Assembly: GCF_030814115.1 (NCBI RefSeq)
Contig: NZ_JAUSUP010000008.1
Span: forward strand, 1 to 64,000
Length of the DNA stretch: 64,000 nt
DNA from: Alkalibacillus filiformis
GTDB lineage: Bacteria; Bacillota; Bacilli; Bacillales; Alkalibacillaceae
Reading direction: 5' to 3'
The first letter of the stretch is position 1; each line of letters begins with the position of its first letter. The notes under the pieces are model-generated. The model saw only the letters and a list, made by a program, of their open reading frames with translations. It did no database searches and was not told where the DNA came from. This document shows positions 5,789-53,907 of the stretch, in pieces. Position numbers and translations under genes: made by a program.

Positions 5789-7162
5789 ATGGCTAAAGCT
5801 AAAGTAATATTTTTCTGCCAAGAATGTGGTTACGAATCACCAAAATGGATGGGGAAATGTCCAGCATGTCATCAATGGAATACGTTAGTAGAAGAAAAAG
5901 TTTCTAAAAAATCCGAGCGACATGAAGTAGGGAGTAATCAATCGAAAAAACGTAAAAAGCCTCAATCACTTAAAGAAGTATCATCAAAAGAAGAATCACG
6001 TTTAACGACTAACATGGAAGAATTAAACCGCGTATTAGGTGGCGGAATTGTTCCAGGGTCACTCGTATTAATTGGAGGAGACCCAGGAATTGGTAAGTCC
6101 ACTTTGCTACTACAGTTATCTTCTCAAGTGGCTAACTTAAATATGAATGTTTTGTACATATCAGGTGAAGAATCGGAAAAGCAAACAAAGCTTAGAGCAG
6201 ACCGCCTTGATGTAAGTGAGAATGATTTGTTTATTATGGCGGAGACGAACATAGAGTATGTGATCGATGCAATTGATGAAATGAATCCTTCATTTGTCGT
6301 CATTGACTCGATCCAAACCGTTTATCATGATGCAGTGACGTCAGCACCAGGTTCTGTTTCACAAGTAAGGGAATGTACAAGTGCGCTGATGAAACTTGCT
6401 AAGTCAAAGGGGATTCCCATTTTTATAGTTGGACATGTGACTAAAGAAGGGGCAATTGCAGGTCCTAGATTGTTAGAGCACATGGTCGATACTGTTTTAT
6501 ACTTTGAAGGGGAACGTCATCATACATTTAGAATTTTAAGAAGTGTTAAAAACCGCTTTGGTAGTACGCATGAAATGGGTATTTTTGAGATGAAAGAAGA
6601 AGGTTTGGTTGAGGTTAATAATCCTTCAGAAATTTTTCTAGAGGAGCGTTCTCAAGGTGTTGCTGGTTCCACCGTTGTAGCGTCTTTAGAAGGGACTAGG
6701 CCGATGTTGGTTGAGATTCAAGCCTTAATCTCGCCTACTCAGTTCGGGCATTCAAGAAGAATGGCTACAGGACTCGATCATAACCGTGTCCCATTACTTA
6801 TGGCAGTATTAGAAAAAAGAGCAGGGCTTCTATTACAAAACCAAGACGCATATGTAAAAGTAGCAGGTGGAGTTAAGTTAGATGAACCTGCGATTGACTT
6901 AGGAGTTGCAATTAGTGTTGCTTCAAGTTTCCGTGATCACCCGACTAGACCTGACGATGTGTTTATCGGTGAAGTAGGGTTAACAGGAGAAGTAAGAAGA
7001 GTCGCACGTATAGAGCAGCGTGTTCAAGAAGCGGCAAAGTTGGGATTTAAACGGATTATTTTACCGCGAAAAAATTTAGGTAGCTTTACAGCGCCGGACG
7101 GGGTGGAGTTAGTAGGTGTTGATTCTGTTCACGAAGCATTGAAAGAAGGTTTAGGTGAATAG
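5789..7162 (+). CDS. radA: DNA repair/recombination ATPase RadA
   Basis: RadA (Sms) is a RecA-related hexameric helicase that processes branched recombination intermediates. The 457 aa protein has an N-terminal zinc finger (C10, C13, C24, C27), Walker [11 protein letters not shown] at 96-105, the family-specific KNRFG motif at 254-258, and a C-terminal Lon-like domain from about residue 280. The start follows GAAAGGGAG. In B. subtilis the next gene is disA, whose product contacts RadA; here no disA follows and the next gene is yacL. Confidence 0.96.
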
Positions 7163-7192
7163 TGTTACAAAATAAAAATATTTGTAACACAA

Positions 7193-7317
7193 TTGACATA
7201 CAATCTTGAGAAGTGATATAATATTTGTTATTTTATTTTGACGTATTTTCGGTGAGCATGGTATAATTTACAATTATAGTTAAAAATCAATAACTGACTT
7301 ATGCTCACCGCTTTTTT
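7193..7317 (+). promoter_or_regulatory. Tandem promoters nested in a terminator-like inverted repeat, upstream of yacL
   Basis: Two sigma-A-like promoters are visible: P1 TTGACA (7193-7198) N18 TATAAT (7217-7222) and P2 TTGACG (7238-7243) N18 TATAAT (7262-7267). A perfect 10 bp inverted repeat, CGGTGAGCAT (7250-7259) and ATGCTCACCG (7301-7310), ends in a run of seven T. P2's -10 box lies in its loop. RNA from P1 would carry both arms, whereas RNA from P2 would carry only the second. Differential termination is inferred. Confidence 0.7.
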
Positions 7318-8496: not shown

Positions 8497-8592
8497 ATTT
8501 ATATTTGAGACCGAGAATATGTGTTTATATTGTGAAATTAGTGTAAAATAGGTGGTACATAAGAGAGTTTTTCAAAAGGAAAGGGAATATAT

Positions 8593-9777
8593 ATGGGGAA
8601 CTATCAAGCGATTGTTTTAGCAGCTGGTCAAGGAAAGCGGATGGGCGTCGGTCATAATAAGCAATTGATTACGTTAGGTGATCGGCCGTTAATTGCCCAT
8701 ACCCTTCAAGTATTCGAAGATGATCCATGGTGCTCAGCGATTTATCTCGTTGTCCATCTAGATGAACAGGTCGTTATGCAGGACATTGTTAACGAACACG
8801 GTTTTTCTAAGGTCGTTAAGTTCGTGAGCGGTGGACTTGAAAGACAACACAGTGTTAAACATGCAGTAGATTCATTGACTGATGAAATGATTACTTTTGT
8901 CCATGATGGAGCAAGACCTTTTGTTTCACAAGAAGAATTACATAAGTTGTATGAAGCGACGGTTTTACATGGAGCTGCATTTTTGGCAACACGTGTGACA
9001 GATACTATTAAACAAGTTGAAGGTCATGAGGTGAAAACGTTAGACCGAAGTAAACTATACCAAGCTCAAACACCACAAGCGTTTACTTACAAATGGCTAA
9101 CAGAAGCGCATGATTACGCAGCTGAAAACAAAGAGGTCGCAACTGATGATGTTGCACTGTTAGAGTTAATTAGCAAAAATGCAGCTGTCGTTGAAGGAAG
9201 CTATCACAATTTTAAATTGACAACACGAGAAGATATACAAAAGGCTGAAAATATGCTAAAAATAAATAGGCAAGGAAACTATAAGGAGGACCCTTCATTG
9301 TTTCGGATAGGACAAGGTTTTGATGTGCATCAATTAGTAGAGGGTAGGCCGTGTATCATTGGTGGAGTAACAATTCCGTATGAAAAAGGTTTGTTAGGCC
9401 ATTCAGATGCCGACGTTTTATTACATACAATTGCTGACGCTGCACTTGGCGCAATCGGTGAAGGTGATATCGGAAAGCATTTTCCAGACACTGACCCACA
9501 ATATGAAGGGTTGGACTCAAAAGAGTTATTACAAGAGGTATGGAATAAAGTTGAACAGTCAGGTTACACGTTAGTTAATGTAGACTGCACCATAATGGCT
9601 CAAGCACCGAAGATGGCCCCATATATAGAAGAGATGAGAAGTGTAATTGCTAACTTGTTACAAGCTGATCTAAACCAGGTCAACGTTAAGGCGACTACGA
9701 CTGAGAAGTTAGGCTTTACAGGACGTAAAGAGGGAATTGCATCACAAGCGGTCATTTTATTACAACAAAGAGCTTAA
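8593..9777 (+). CDS. ispDF: Fused IspD-IspF: MEP cytidylyltransferase and MECDP synthase
   Basis: The 394 aa reading frame joins two enzymes of the MEP isoprenoid pathway. IspD (about 1-226) makes CDP-methylerythritol and shows the nucleotide-binding [10 protein letters not shown] at 9-18. IspF (from about 236) forms the cyclodiphosphate and shows GQGFDVHQL with metal ligands Asp244 and His246, then [13 protein letters not shown]. In B. subtilis these are two adjacent genes. Here no stop codon separates them, yet AAGGAGGA and a TTG codon remain at the junction, so separate IspF may also be made. The fused length is close to the sum of the two Bacillus proteins. IspDF fusions are known mainly from alpha- and epsilon-proteobacteria. 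A single-base sequencing error seems unlikely, because both halves share one frame. Confidence 0.93.
9283..9300 (+). promoter_or_regulatory. Internal ribosome binding site and TTG start for the IspF part
   Basis: AAGGAGGA (9283-9290) stands 7 bases before an in-frame TTG (9298-9300). The next codons encode [11 protein letters not shown], exactly where a free-standing IspF would begin. Initiation here would yield a protein of about 159 aa. The site is translated in the fused protein as the linker residues YKEDPSL. Confidence 0.75.
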
Positions 9778-11297: not shown

Positions 11298-11334
11298 CAT
11301 GTTTCAAAGCACTTAATATAATATACAAAGCGTT

Positions 11335-11574
11335 GATGAGGAGAAGTAAAACGGTCAAGCTAAACACAGAGAGAGCTACATTTGCTGAGAGTAGCTTTTA
11401 GGTTGGCGTTTGAAATGCACCTCAGAGCCTTCACTTGAAACTTGAGTAGAGTGAAGCGGTTAAGTACCGTTAAACACTTCGAAAGTTGAGAGGAATACCT
11501 CTAAACAGAGTGGAACCGCGTTATTAGGCGTCTCTGTCTATCTAAATAGACAGGGGCGCTTTTTAATTTTTAAC
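11335..11574 (+). promoter_or_regulatory. T-box riboswitch, cysteine specifier, upstream of cysE-cysS
   Basis: The 343 bp gltX-cysE gap holds a T-box leader. The invariant T-box sequence AGAGTGGAACCGCG is at 11507-11520. The specifier is read as TGC (Cys) at 11416-11418, in the context GAAATGCAC of the stem I internal loop. A 14 bp terminator stem (11528-11541 with 11546-11559) is followed by a T run. Uncharged tRNA-Cys would favour the antiterminator. The Cys assignment agrees with the genes downstream. A TATAAT at 11317-11322 may be the -10 box, but no good -35 box is visible. Confidence 0.93.
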
Positions 11575-18769: not shown

Positions 18770-18800
18770 AGTTTTGTTGTAAAACTTAATGATAATTATA

Positions 18801-18929
18801 CCGTAGACAGTAGGAGCGGATAATCGCTTAAATATTCCTGCCGAGGTGTGTTAACGTATATTTTGTACAAGAATGTTATGTGCAATTTTATCTAACCATA
18901 CCTCCATGTCTGCATGGAGGTATTTTTTT
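18801..18929 (+). promoter_or_regulatory. L10 leader RNA with attenuator
   Basis: The segment starting CCGTAGACAGTAGGAGCGG and containing TTCCTGCCGAGGTGTG matches the conserved ribosomal protein L10 leader, which binds L10(L12)4. A terminator follows: ATACCTCCATG (18898-18908) pairs with CATGGAGGTAT (18913-18923), then a T run. Excess L10 would stabilise the leader fold and allow termination before rplJ. Confidence 0.93.
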
Positions 18930-18978
18930 GGGCGAAAACACCGATCGGTATGATGAGAAATAATTAGGGGGTGGAACA

Positions 18979-42840: not shown

Positions 42841-42841
<1 letters not shown>
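42401..42841 (+). CDS. rplO: 50S ribosomal protein L15
   Basis: L15 is a late-assembly protein with a long basic N-terminal extension. The 146 aa protein begins [22 protein letters not shown] and contains [46 protein letters not shown] precedes the ATG. Its stop overlaps the secY start by one base, which couples ribosome and translocon synthesis. Confidence 0.97.
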
Positions 42842-45571
<2,730 letters not shown>

Positions 45572-52054: not shown

Positions 52055-52083
52055 ATATATGTAAATACGAAATTTAACAACTA

Positions 52084-52249
52084 CATACCCTCATATAATA
52101 TTGGGAATATGGCCCAAAAGTCTCTACCCGGTTGCCGTAAACGACTGGACTATGGGGGAGTAATCTGGCTACAAGGGTGTAGTATATAGTTTTGAACATT
52201 TATGCAGATTGCTTTCCTCATACGGGAGAGTAGTCTGCATTTTATTTTT
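52084..52249 (+). promoter_or_regulatory. Purine riboswitch, guanine class, with terminator
   Basis: The aptamer (about 52084-52163) has P1 CCCTCATA (52088-52095) with TATGGGGG (52151-52158), P2 TTGGG/CCCAA with its ATATGG loop, and P3 with a CCGTAAA loop. The specificity base is C in GGACTATG, which predicts guanine or hypoxanthine rather than adenine. The terminator pairs ATGCAGA (52202-52208) with TCTGCAT (52234-52240) and ends in T. The competing antiterminator is clear: 52151-52167 (TATGGGGGAGTAATCTG) can pair with 52205-52222. The leader is an OFF switch for the pur operon. Confidence 0.96.
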
Positions 52250-52270: not shown

Positions 52271-52771
52271 ATGGAAGCAATGGTAGGTGTCATTATGGGA
52301 AGCACGTCGGATTGGGAGACGATGAAGCATACGTGTGAACTGTTGGAAGAGTTGGAGATTCCGTATGAAAAAGAAGTCGTGTCTGCTCATCGTACGCCTG
52401 AGAAGATGTTTACATATGCGGATCAAGCTTACGAACGAGGATTAAAAGTGATTATAGCTGGTGCAGGTGGAGCTGCTCACTTACCGGGTATGGTTGCTGC
52501 TAAAACAGTATTACCGGTAATTGGTGTACCTGTTCAATCGAAAACTTTAAATGGATTAGATTCGTTACTATCAATTGTACAAATGCCAGCTGGTGTGCCT
52601 GTAGCGACAGTAGCGATTGGTAAGGCCGGAGCGAAAAACGCTGGCTTATTAGCAGCTCAACAGTTAGGAGCATTTGACTCATCAATCTATGAAAAACTAA
52701 AAAGATATCGTGAAGCGATGAAAGATAAAGTGGAAACTAGTAATGAGGAGCTTCAATCATGGAACGTTTAA
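52271..52771 (+). CDS. purE: N5-carboxyaminoimidazole ribonucleotide mutase, PurE class I
   Basis: PurE moves the carboxyl group of N5-CAIR to give CAIR. The 166 aa octameric enzyme shows [27 protein letters not shown], the conserved SAHRTPEKM and [24 protein letters not shown] precedes the ATG at 52271; ATG 52280 is a possible alternative. It is the first gene of the pur operon and overlaps purK by 13 bases. Confidence 0.96.
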
Positions 52772-53907
52772 TTAGACCAGAATCAACCATTGGAATTATT
52801 GGTGGAGGACAACTTGGACAAATGATCGCACTTTCAGCAAAGGCGATGGGGTTTAAAACCGCCGTTTTAGACCCTACACCTAACTCACCGACAGGGCAAG
52901 TAGCGGATGAAGAAATCATCGCACCGTATTCAAGTCTAGAAGCGGCTAAGAGGTTAAAAGATGTAGCTGATGTGATCACATACGAATTCGAGAATGTCGA
53001 TGTGAAAGTGCTGGAGTATTTAGATCAAGAAGCGTATCTACCACAAGGAGGCCAATTGATTCAAACGACACAAGACCGTGCTTTTGAAAAAGAAGCAATC
53101 GAAAGAAGTGGTGCAAAAGTTGCTTCTTATAAATTGGTAGATACTAATAGTGACTTACTTGAAGCGGTCAACCAAATCGGTCTTCCGTCGATTCTTAAGA
53201 CGAGACGATTCGGTTATGACGGTAAAGGTCAAGTCGTTATTGAATCTAATATTGATTTAAATGAAGCAAGCCAACTGTTAGAACAAGGTCCTTGCATATT
53301 AGAAGAGAAAATTAATTTTAAACAAGAATTATCAGTCATGGTCGTTAGAAGTACTACAGGCGAAGTGATGACGTACCCAGTGTCTGAAAATATTCACGTC
53401 AATCATATTTTACATCAATCAATCGTGCCAGCACGATTGTCTGAACAAGTTGAAGAGCAAGCAAGGGAAGTTGCGATTGCTGTGGCTGAAACGCTTGATG
53501 TCATTGGCGCGTTAGGTGTCGAGTTATTTTTAGGTCAAGACGACACAATCTATGTGAATGAAGTAGCACCAAGGCCGCACAACTCAGGGCACTATACGAT
53601 GGATGCTTGTATAACTTCACAATTTGAACAACATGTTAGAGCGATTTGTGGTTGGACGTTGGGTGAAGGAACGCTAATGAACCCCGTTGTTATGACAAAC
53701 ATTCTCGGTCAACACTTAGAAGGAGCAAGGGAGAAAGTCGTCAGCTTACCCCAAGCCAAGCTTCACTTATATGGGAAAGCCGAAGCTAAACAAAATCGAA
53801 AAATGGGTCATATAAACTTTGTCGGAAACGATGTTAATGATATGTTAAAACAGATTGAACAATTAAACATTTGGAGGGAACAACATGATCGAGCGTTATA
53901 CACGTGA
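52759..53907 (+). CDS. purK: N5-carboxyaminoimidazole ribonucleotide synthetase
   Basis: PurK uses ATP and bicarbonate to carboxylate AIR. The 382 aa ATP-grasp enzyme has [29 protein letters not shown] at the N-terminus, the ATP-binding [29 protein letters not shown] and the [13 protein letters not shown] metal site. It overlaps both neighbours, purE by 13 and purB by 23 bases. Confidence 0.96.

Follow-up and report, generated by a model that had tools for sequence, protein, structure and literature searches.

The locus described here lies in a 64,000-nucleotide stretch of an Alkalibacillus filiformis contig (hereafter the window), and consists of a single open reading frame on the forward strand, ispDF, running from the ATG at position 8593 to the stop codon ending at position 9777 and encoding 394 amino acids. 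A purine-rich, Shine–Dalgarno-like stretch, read from the sequence, precedes the start codon (8574–8586, forward strand). The surrounding genes, named by inspection and after the B. subtilis gene order, are presumably clpC, radA and yacL on one side and gltX, cysE and cysS on the other; the neighbours of ispDF are presumably the same as in B. subtilis. Three segments, all on the forward strand, can be distinguished along the frame: an IspD domain (residues 6–223, positions 8608–9261; PF01128, E-value 3.8e-58), a linker corresponding to the gap between the two domain matches and holding the internal ribosome binding site (residues 224–235, positions 9262–9297), and an IspF domain (positions 9298–9777; PF02542, YgbB/IspF, E-value 1.3e-70 over residues 237–390).

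Both Pfam and NCBIfam place the two domains in one unbroken chain, the single-domain models TIGR00453 and TIGR00151 each scoring above their own cut-offs, and residues 236–392 of the fused protein align to residues 1–157 of the IspF chain 5iwx. Since the frame is uninterrupted, with no stop or frame shift at the junction, and both domains are matched, the one-frame IspD–IspF fusion proposed by the first-pass annotation is confirmed. Both enzyme domains are complete, and both activities are predicted to reside in the fused chain. The score against NF006899, the equivalog model for bifunctional IspDF, was 398.9 bits and thus under the curated cut-off of 417, so that we refer to the gene as an IspD–IspF fusion and not as a member of that family; none of the 398 genomes sampled from the phylum passed this cut-off, though many of them contain fusions. 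The AlphaFold2 model of the protein has a mean pLDDT of 88.8, falling below 50 at linker residues 228–234. The source is closely related to Alkalibacillus haloalkaliphilus, whose fused protein (locus L002) shows 92% identity.

Within the linker, an internal Shine–Dalgarno (SD) sequence, AAGGAGGA (9283–9290, forward strand), is followed after 7 nt by an in-frame TTG (9298–9300, forward strand), the predicted start of a free IspF of 159 amino acids. The duplex energy (E) of this SD is −11.1 kcal/mol, and none of the gene's 19 other in-frame NTG codons pairs as strongly as 9298. The pairing energies were computed with a presumed anti-SD sequence; the exact 16S 3'-end pattern, searched for as confirmation, was not found in the draft assembly. 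As a background count, 50 long open reading frames of the window were listed mechanically: E of −10 or below was reached at 3 of their 475 internal in-frame NTG codons, 9298 among them. The pattern made of AAGGAGG, a spacer and TTGNNNCG occurs once in the 64-kb window, against 0.04 occurrences expected from shuffles. The retained internal ribosome binding site and TTG that had been noted earlier at the junction are present, and the internal start codon is preceded by a well-spaced SD, as looked for in a dual-product gene. TTG is a weaker start codon than ATG. The best fold predicted for the local RNA makes up only 4% of the ensemble; in it the AAGGAGGA element is unpaired and the TTG is paired. 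A regulatory role of local RNA structure was unsupported (z 0.67), and Rfam at the gathering threshold gave no match at the ispD–ispF junction.

Among 299 genomes drawn evenly across the order, with full-length matches at the head of the match list, at least 26 carry the fusion, and all of those among the matches listed belong to three GTDB families, namely that of the window (f1) and two others (f6 and f36). Most of the 299 genomes are unfused, as is B. subtilis, in whose record ispD and ispF are annotated as separate genes, in agreement with what the first-pass annotation had stated. Specifically, the fusion is uninterrupted in 18 of the 22 f1 genomes and in 6 of the 9 f36 genomes, while family f6 comprises 39 fused genomes out of 44, 4 with separate genes and 1 without a match. 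Once loci with the same 360 bases surrounding the junction had been collapsed, these families provided 63 distinct fused loci (18 from f1, 39 from f6 and 6 from f36). Fusions are also present in Bacillota genomes of other classes.

An in-frame NTG codon (ATG, TTG or GTG) was found at the ispF start in all 63 distinct fused loci, which share ancestry and are not independent samples. The mean SD energy at these inner starts is −9.0 kcal/mol, compared with −2.45 for the other in-frame NTG codons within these fused genes (n = 1171), and it equals the mean at 73 unfused ispF starts (−9.0); the f1 (−11.1) and f36 (−10.6) means are at least as strong as that of the unfused starts. The f1 profile shows a conserved six-base block, GGAGGA, at positions −13 to −8, flanked by a variable linker. 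Counted on the tree for the 18 f1 loci, the six positions of the block have undergone 1, 0, 1, 1, 1 and 2 changes, whereas the other linker positions have mostly undergone 5 to 9 (3 and 5 at −15 and −14). The three positions of the f1 start codon show 3, 0 and 0 changes: TTG occurs in 11 loci, ATG in 5 and GTG in 2, so that the encoded amino acid differs while T and G are constant. These two bases show no change across the whole tree of fused loci (52 rows), and the f6 ATG is unchanged over 29 rows.

Two of the six positions of the GGAGGA block are wobble bases. In f1, G is the third base of the Lys/Glu codon in 11 of 12 cases at −15 and in 16 of 17 at −12; in f36, Lys/Glu codons inside the SD end in G in 5 of 5 cases at each of two positions, and in f6 in 32 of 34 (−18), 5 of 9 (−15) and 17 of 17 (−12). 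Family-wide usage of G-ending Lys/Glu codons is only 28–44% (in f1, 34% AAG and 28% GAG). For wobble G, the two aligned columns in which the SD lies in the majority of f1 rows take the top two ranks among 39 Lys/Glu columns; in f36, a G fraction of 1.0 is shared by four such columns, two of them outside the SD. The SD wobble sites changed once each, a low but not unique figure, given that outside the linker 0 or 1 changes are also seen in 5 of 37 columns coding for Lys or Glu. The signal is conserved beyond the encoded protein, as would be the case in a dual-product gene, and the per-gene synonymous test is weak: when synonymous codons were resampled with the linker peptide fixed, the SD reached p<0.05 in 3 of 18 f1, 3 of 39 f6 and 2 of 6 f36 loci, with medians of 0.09, 0.20 and 0.07, respectively. 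This weakness arises partly because the linker peptide itself follows from the SD.

As controls, we used IspDF fusions from outside the Bacillales, requiring an NTG that lies at most three codons upstream of the first residue of the IspF motif, together with E of −7 or below. The set included 50 loci from other Bacillota classes, mostly chosen for an uninterrupted frame, 44 of which were called fused (L168 being counted among them although the search reported a stop inside its match), and 9 proteobacterial fusions (three from Azospirillum, two from Sinorhizobium and one each from Shinella, Paracoccus, Sphingomonas and Sulfurovum). NTG alone was present in 63/63 Bacillales, 28/44 other Bacillota-class and 3/9 proteobacterial fusions, and NTG with E of −7 or below in 47/63, 14/44 and 1/9, respectively. 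The inner signal is particularly well kept in the Bacillales fusions, above all in those of families f1 and f36. Moreover, the control junctions often lack an NTG, which indicates that a fused IspDF has no need of Met, Leu or Val at this position. Four loci from other Bacillota classes (L184, L190, L198 and L210) combine an NTG with a strongly pairing SD (E −10.6 to −11.5) at their junctions, and inner starts may thus occur in fusions of these classes too.

These comparisons bear on the alternative that the fused IspDF is the only product of importance and that the SD and the NTG are undecayed leftovers of a formerly separate ispF. Such a relic could account for the weak outcome of the synonymous test, for the 30 of 44 other Bacillota-class and 8 of 9 proteobacterial fusions in which the combined signal is missing, and for the SDs with E above −6 found in 9 of the 39 f6 loci (L084, L105, L127 and L129–L134), where the ATG is still kept and where the inner start may be fading. 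However, a mere leftover would not be expected to keep the GGAGGA block and the last two bases of the start codon nearly unchanged in f1 while the linker around them turned over, nor to let Leu, Met and Val replace one another and yet always as NTG, nor to pair in f1 and f36 at least as strongly as unfused ispF starts. We therefore regard the relic explanation as unlikely.

According to a second alternative, the SD-like stretch is no start site at all and instead slows ribosomes between the domains, aiding the folding of IspD. Its place at the domain boundary and the low confidence with which the linker is predicted would suit such a pause, but pausing leaves unexplained the downstream NTG in every one of the 63 loci, as well as a codon whose first base varies while its T and G are constant, and it is very improbable as the explanation. 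We give slightly less credence still to proteolysis, in which both proteins exist but the free IspF is cut from a flexible linker with no internal initiation: the pLDDT values below 50 at residues 228–234 fit a cleavable segment, whereas cleavage predicts no conservation of SD and NTG nucleotides where the amino acids change.

The phylogeny of the locus indicates that the fused and separate states have alternated. A tree of 122 rows places the fused Bacillales rows in a single region (SH-aLRT 95), where split rows are interspersed among them; it requires 6 changes of state, 5 of them imposed by well-supported branches. A tree of 77 rows, built with more care, requires 7 fused/split changes. 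A single fusion without later change was rejected by constraining the fused rows to one clade (52 versus 25, AU p 1.8e-68). The split relatives inside the clade retain the inner SD and start. Two of them, L065 and L067, carry a stop codon immediately before the TTG, and two Piscibacillus species (L007 and L013) have different stops upstream. A few relatives with a stop just before the start codon might recall a stop or frameshift missed in assembly, but this can be ruled out for the fusion itself, because the comparison of sister species proposed in the first-pass annotation found the same open junction in independent assemblies, with 63 distinct fused loci in three families, and makes the frameshift or stop that would undo the fusion unlikely.

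In the Alkalibacillus–Piscibacillus part of the tree, the split genes retain some linker peptide at the IspD end, a remnant that by inference favours splitting there. Over the whole clade, the history may have been either one fusion followed by several splits or several fusions. With 5 to 7 changes between the two forms, the fused arrangement is a long-lived state; the earlier view of a passing intermediate of gene fusion does not hold, as fusion and inner start persist in 63 loci and the forms alternate. In a quick tree, which has many long branches elsewhere, a branch of SH-aLRT 100 sets the 47 Bacillales rows, both fused and split, apart from the remaining rows. This separates the Bacillales fusion from the other Bacillota and proteobacterial fusions sampled, and the independence from proteobacterial IspDF that had been suggested is upheld for those sampled.

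In conclusion, the comparison across species favours a functional internal start, as the first-pass annotation had supposed, and we think that the ispDF locus is probably a stable two-product gene, under selection to give both IspDF and free IspF. Ribosomes starting at the ATG at 8593 would read through to produce the bifunctional IspDF, while others would start on the same mRNA at the internal AAGGAGGA–TTG (9283–9300) and produce a free IspF of normal length; the use of the internal site and the making of free IspF are what we infer from the sequence comparisons. The free IspF, expected to form trimers, would mix with or supplement the fused enzyme, untying IspF from a 1:1 ratio with IspD. 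The B. subtilis enzymes are reported to be a dimer (BsIspD) and a trimer (BsIspF) (PMC5821942), and, more speculatively, free IspF could give trimers that lack one or more of the three IspD arms. As a tentative extension, less probable than the two-product gene itself, a preserved inner start might make fusion and separation nearly interchangeable and so permit repeated toggling between them, with IspF trimers of mixed make-up, some subunits bearing IspD and others not, and with an IspD:IspF ratio set by the strength of initiation at the junction.

Both parts of the two-product arrangement have precedents. Bifunctional IspDF enzymes are established in proteobacteria, that of Campylobacter jejuni being reported as bifunctional (PMC5821942), and the IspDF proteins of C. 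jejuni, Agrobacterium and Mesorhizobium (PDB 1w55; NF006899) likewise join IspD and IspF, in this order, in a single chain. The proteobacterial fusions sampled differ from that of the window in their separate origin and in the scarcity of the inner signal, present at 1 of the 9 junctions read. The separate ispD–ispF pair of B. subtilis and most Bacillales has an equally strong SD at the ispF start, as judged from the 73 unfused starts, but a stop lies between the two genes, whereas in the window ispD runs into ispF. Internal in-frame starts that yield a C-terminal subunit are described for the aspartokinase gene lysC, with its alpha and beta products (PMC6011933, PMC11955535), and for Salmonella spaO, whose internal start gives a C-terminal product of SpaO (PMC13059759). 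As reported for lysC and spaO, and as predicted for ispDF, one frame gives two products, and the shorter of them corresponds to the C-terminal part; unlike in those genes, the predicted inner product of ispDF is a complete second enzyme, encoded by a separate gene in relatives.

The main text of the C. jejuni ribosome-profiling study (PMC11955535) makes no mention of ispDF, and among the matches listed, covering titles and the beginnings of abstracts, the literature contained neither an IspDF with an internal start nor this fusion in these genera. Fused IspDF enzymes are known, as are in-frame starts inside genes; their combination, with an inner start preserved in dozens of species and with relatives that alternate between fused and split forms, was not found among the matches listed from the literature searched. 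The clade comprises strong, weak and possibly fading inner starts beside split forms, and this mix makes selection after fusion on the independent expression of the second gene directly testable in a central biosynthetic pathway. In addition, annotating such loci with one product may overlook a protein.

Some other features of the window are worth recording. Two further internal in-frame TTG codons with a strong SD, at 43030 (E −11.2, within the frame 42841–44133) and at 53056 (E −10.6, within the frame 52759–53907), are possibly misplaced starts or additional inner starts. Between radA and yacL, positions 7162–7301 hold no disA, a gene that occupies this position in B. subtilis; the genome has a single match to the diadenylate cyclase domain, in a 280-aa frame on contig C6. 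Rfam identified a T-box leader (11324–11538) between the genes that we take to be gltX and a cysE-like gene and, at the gathering threshold, a ribosomal protein L10 leader (18783–18937) and a purine riboswitch (52071–52172).
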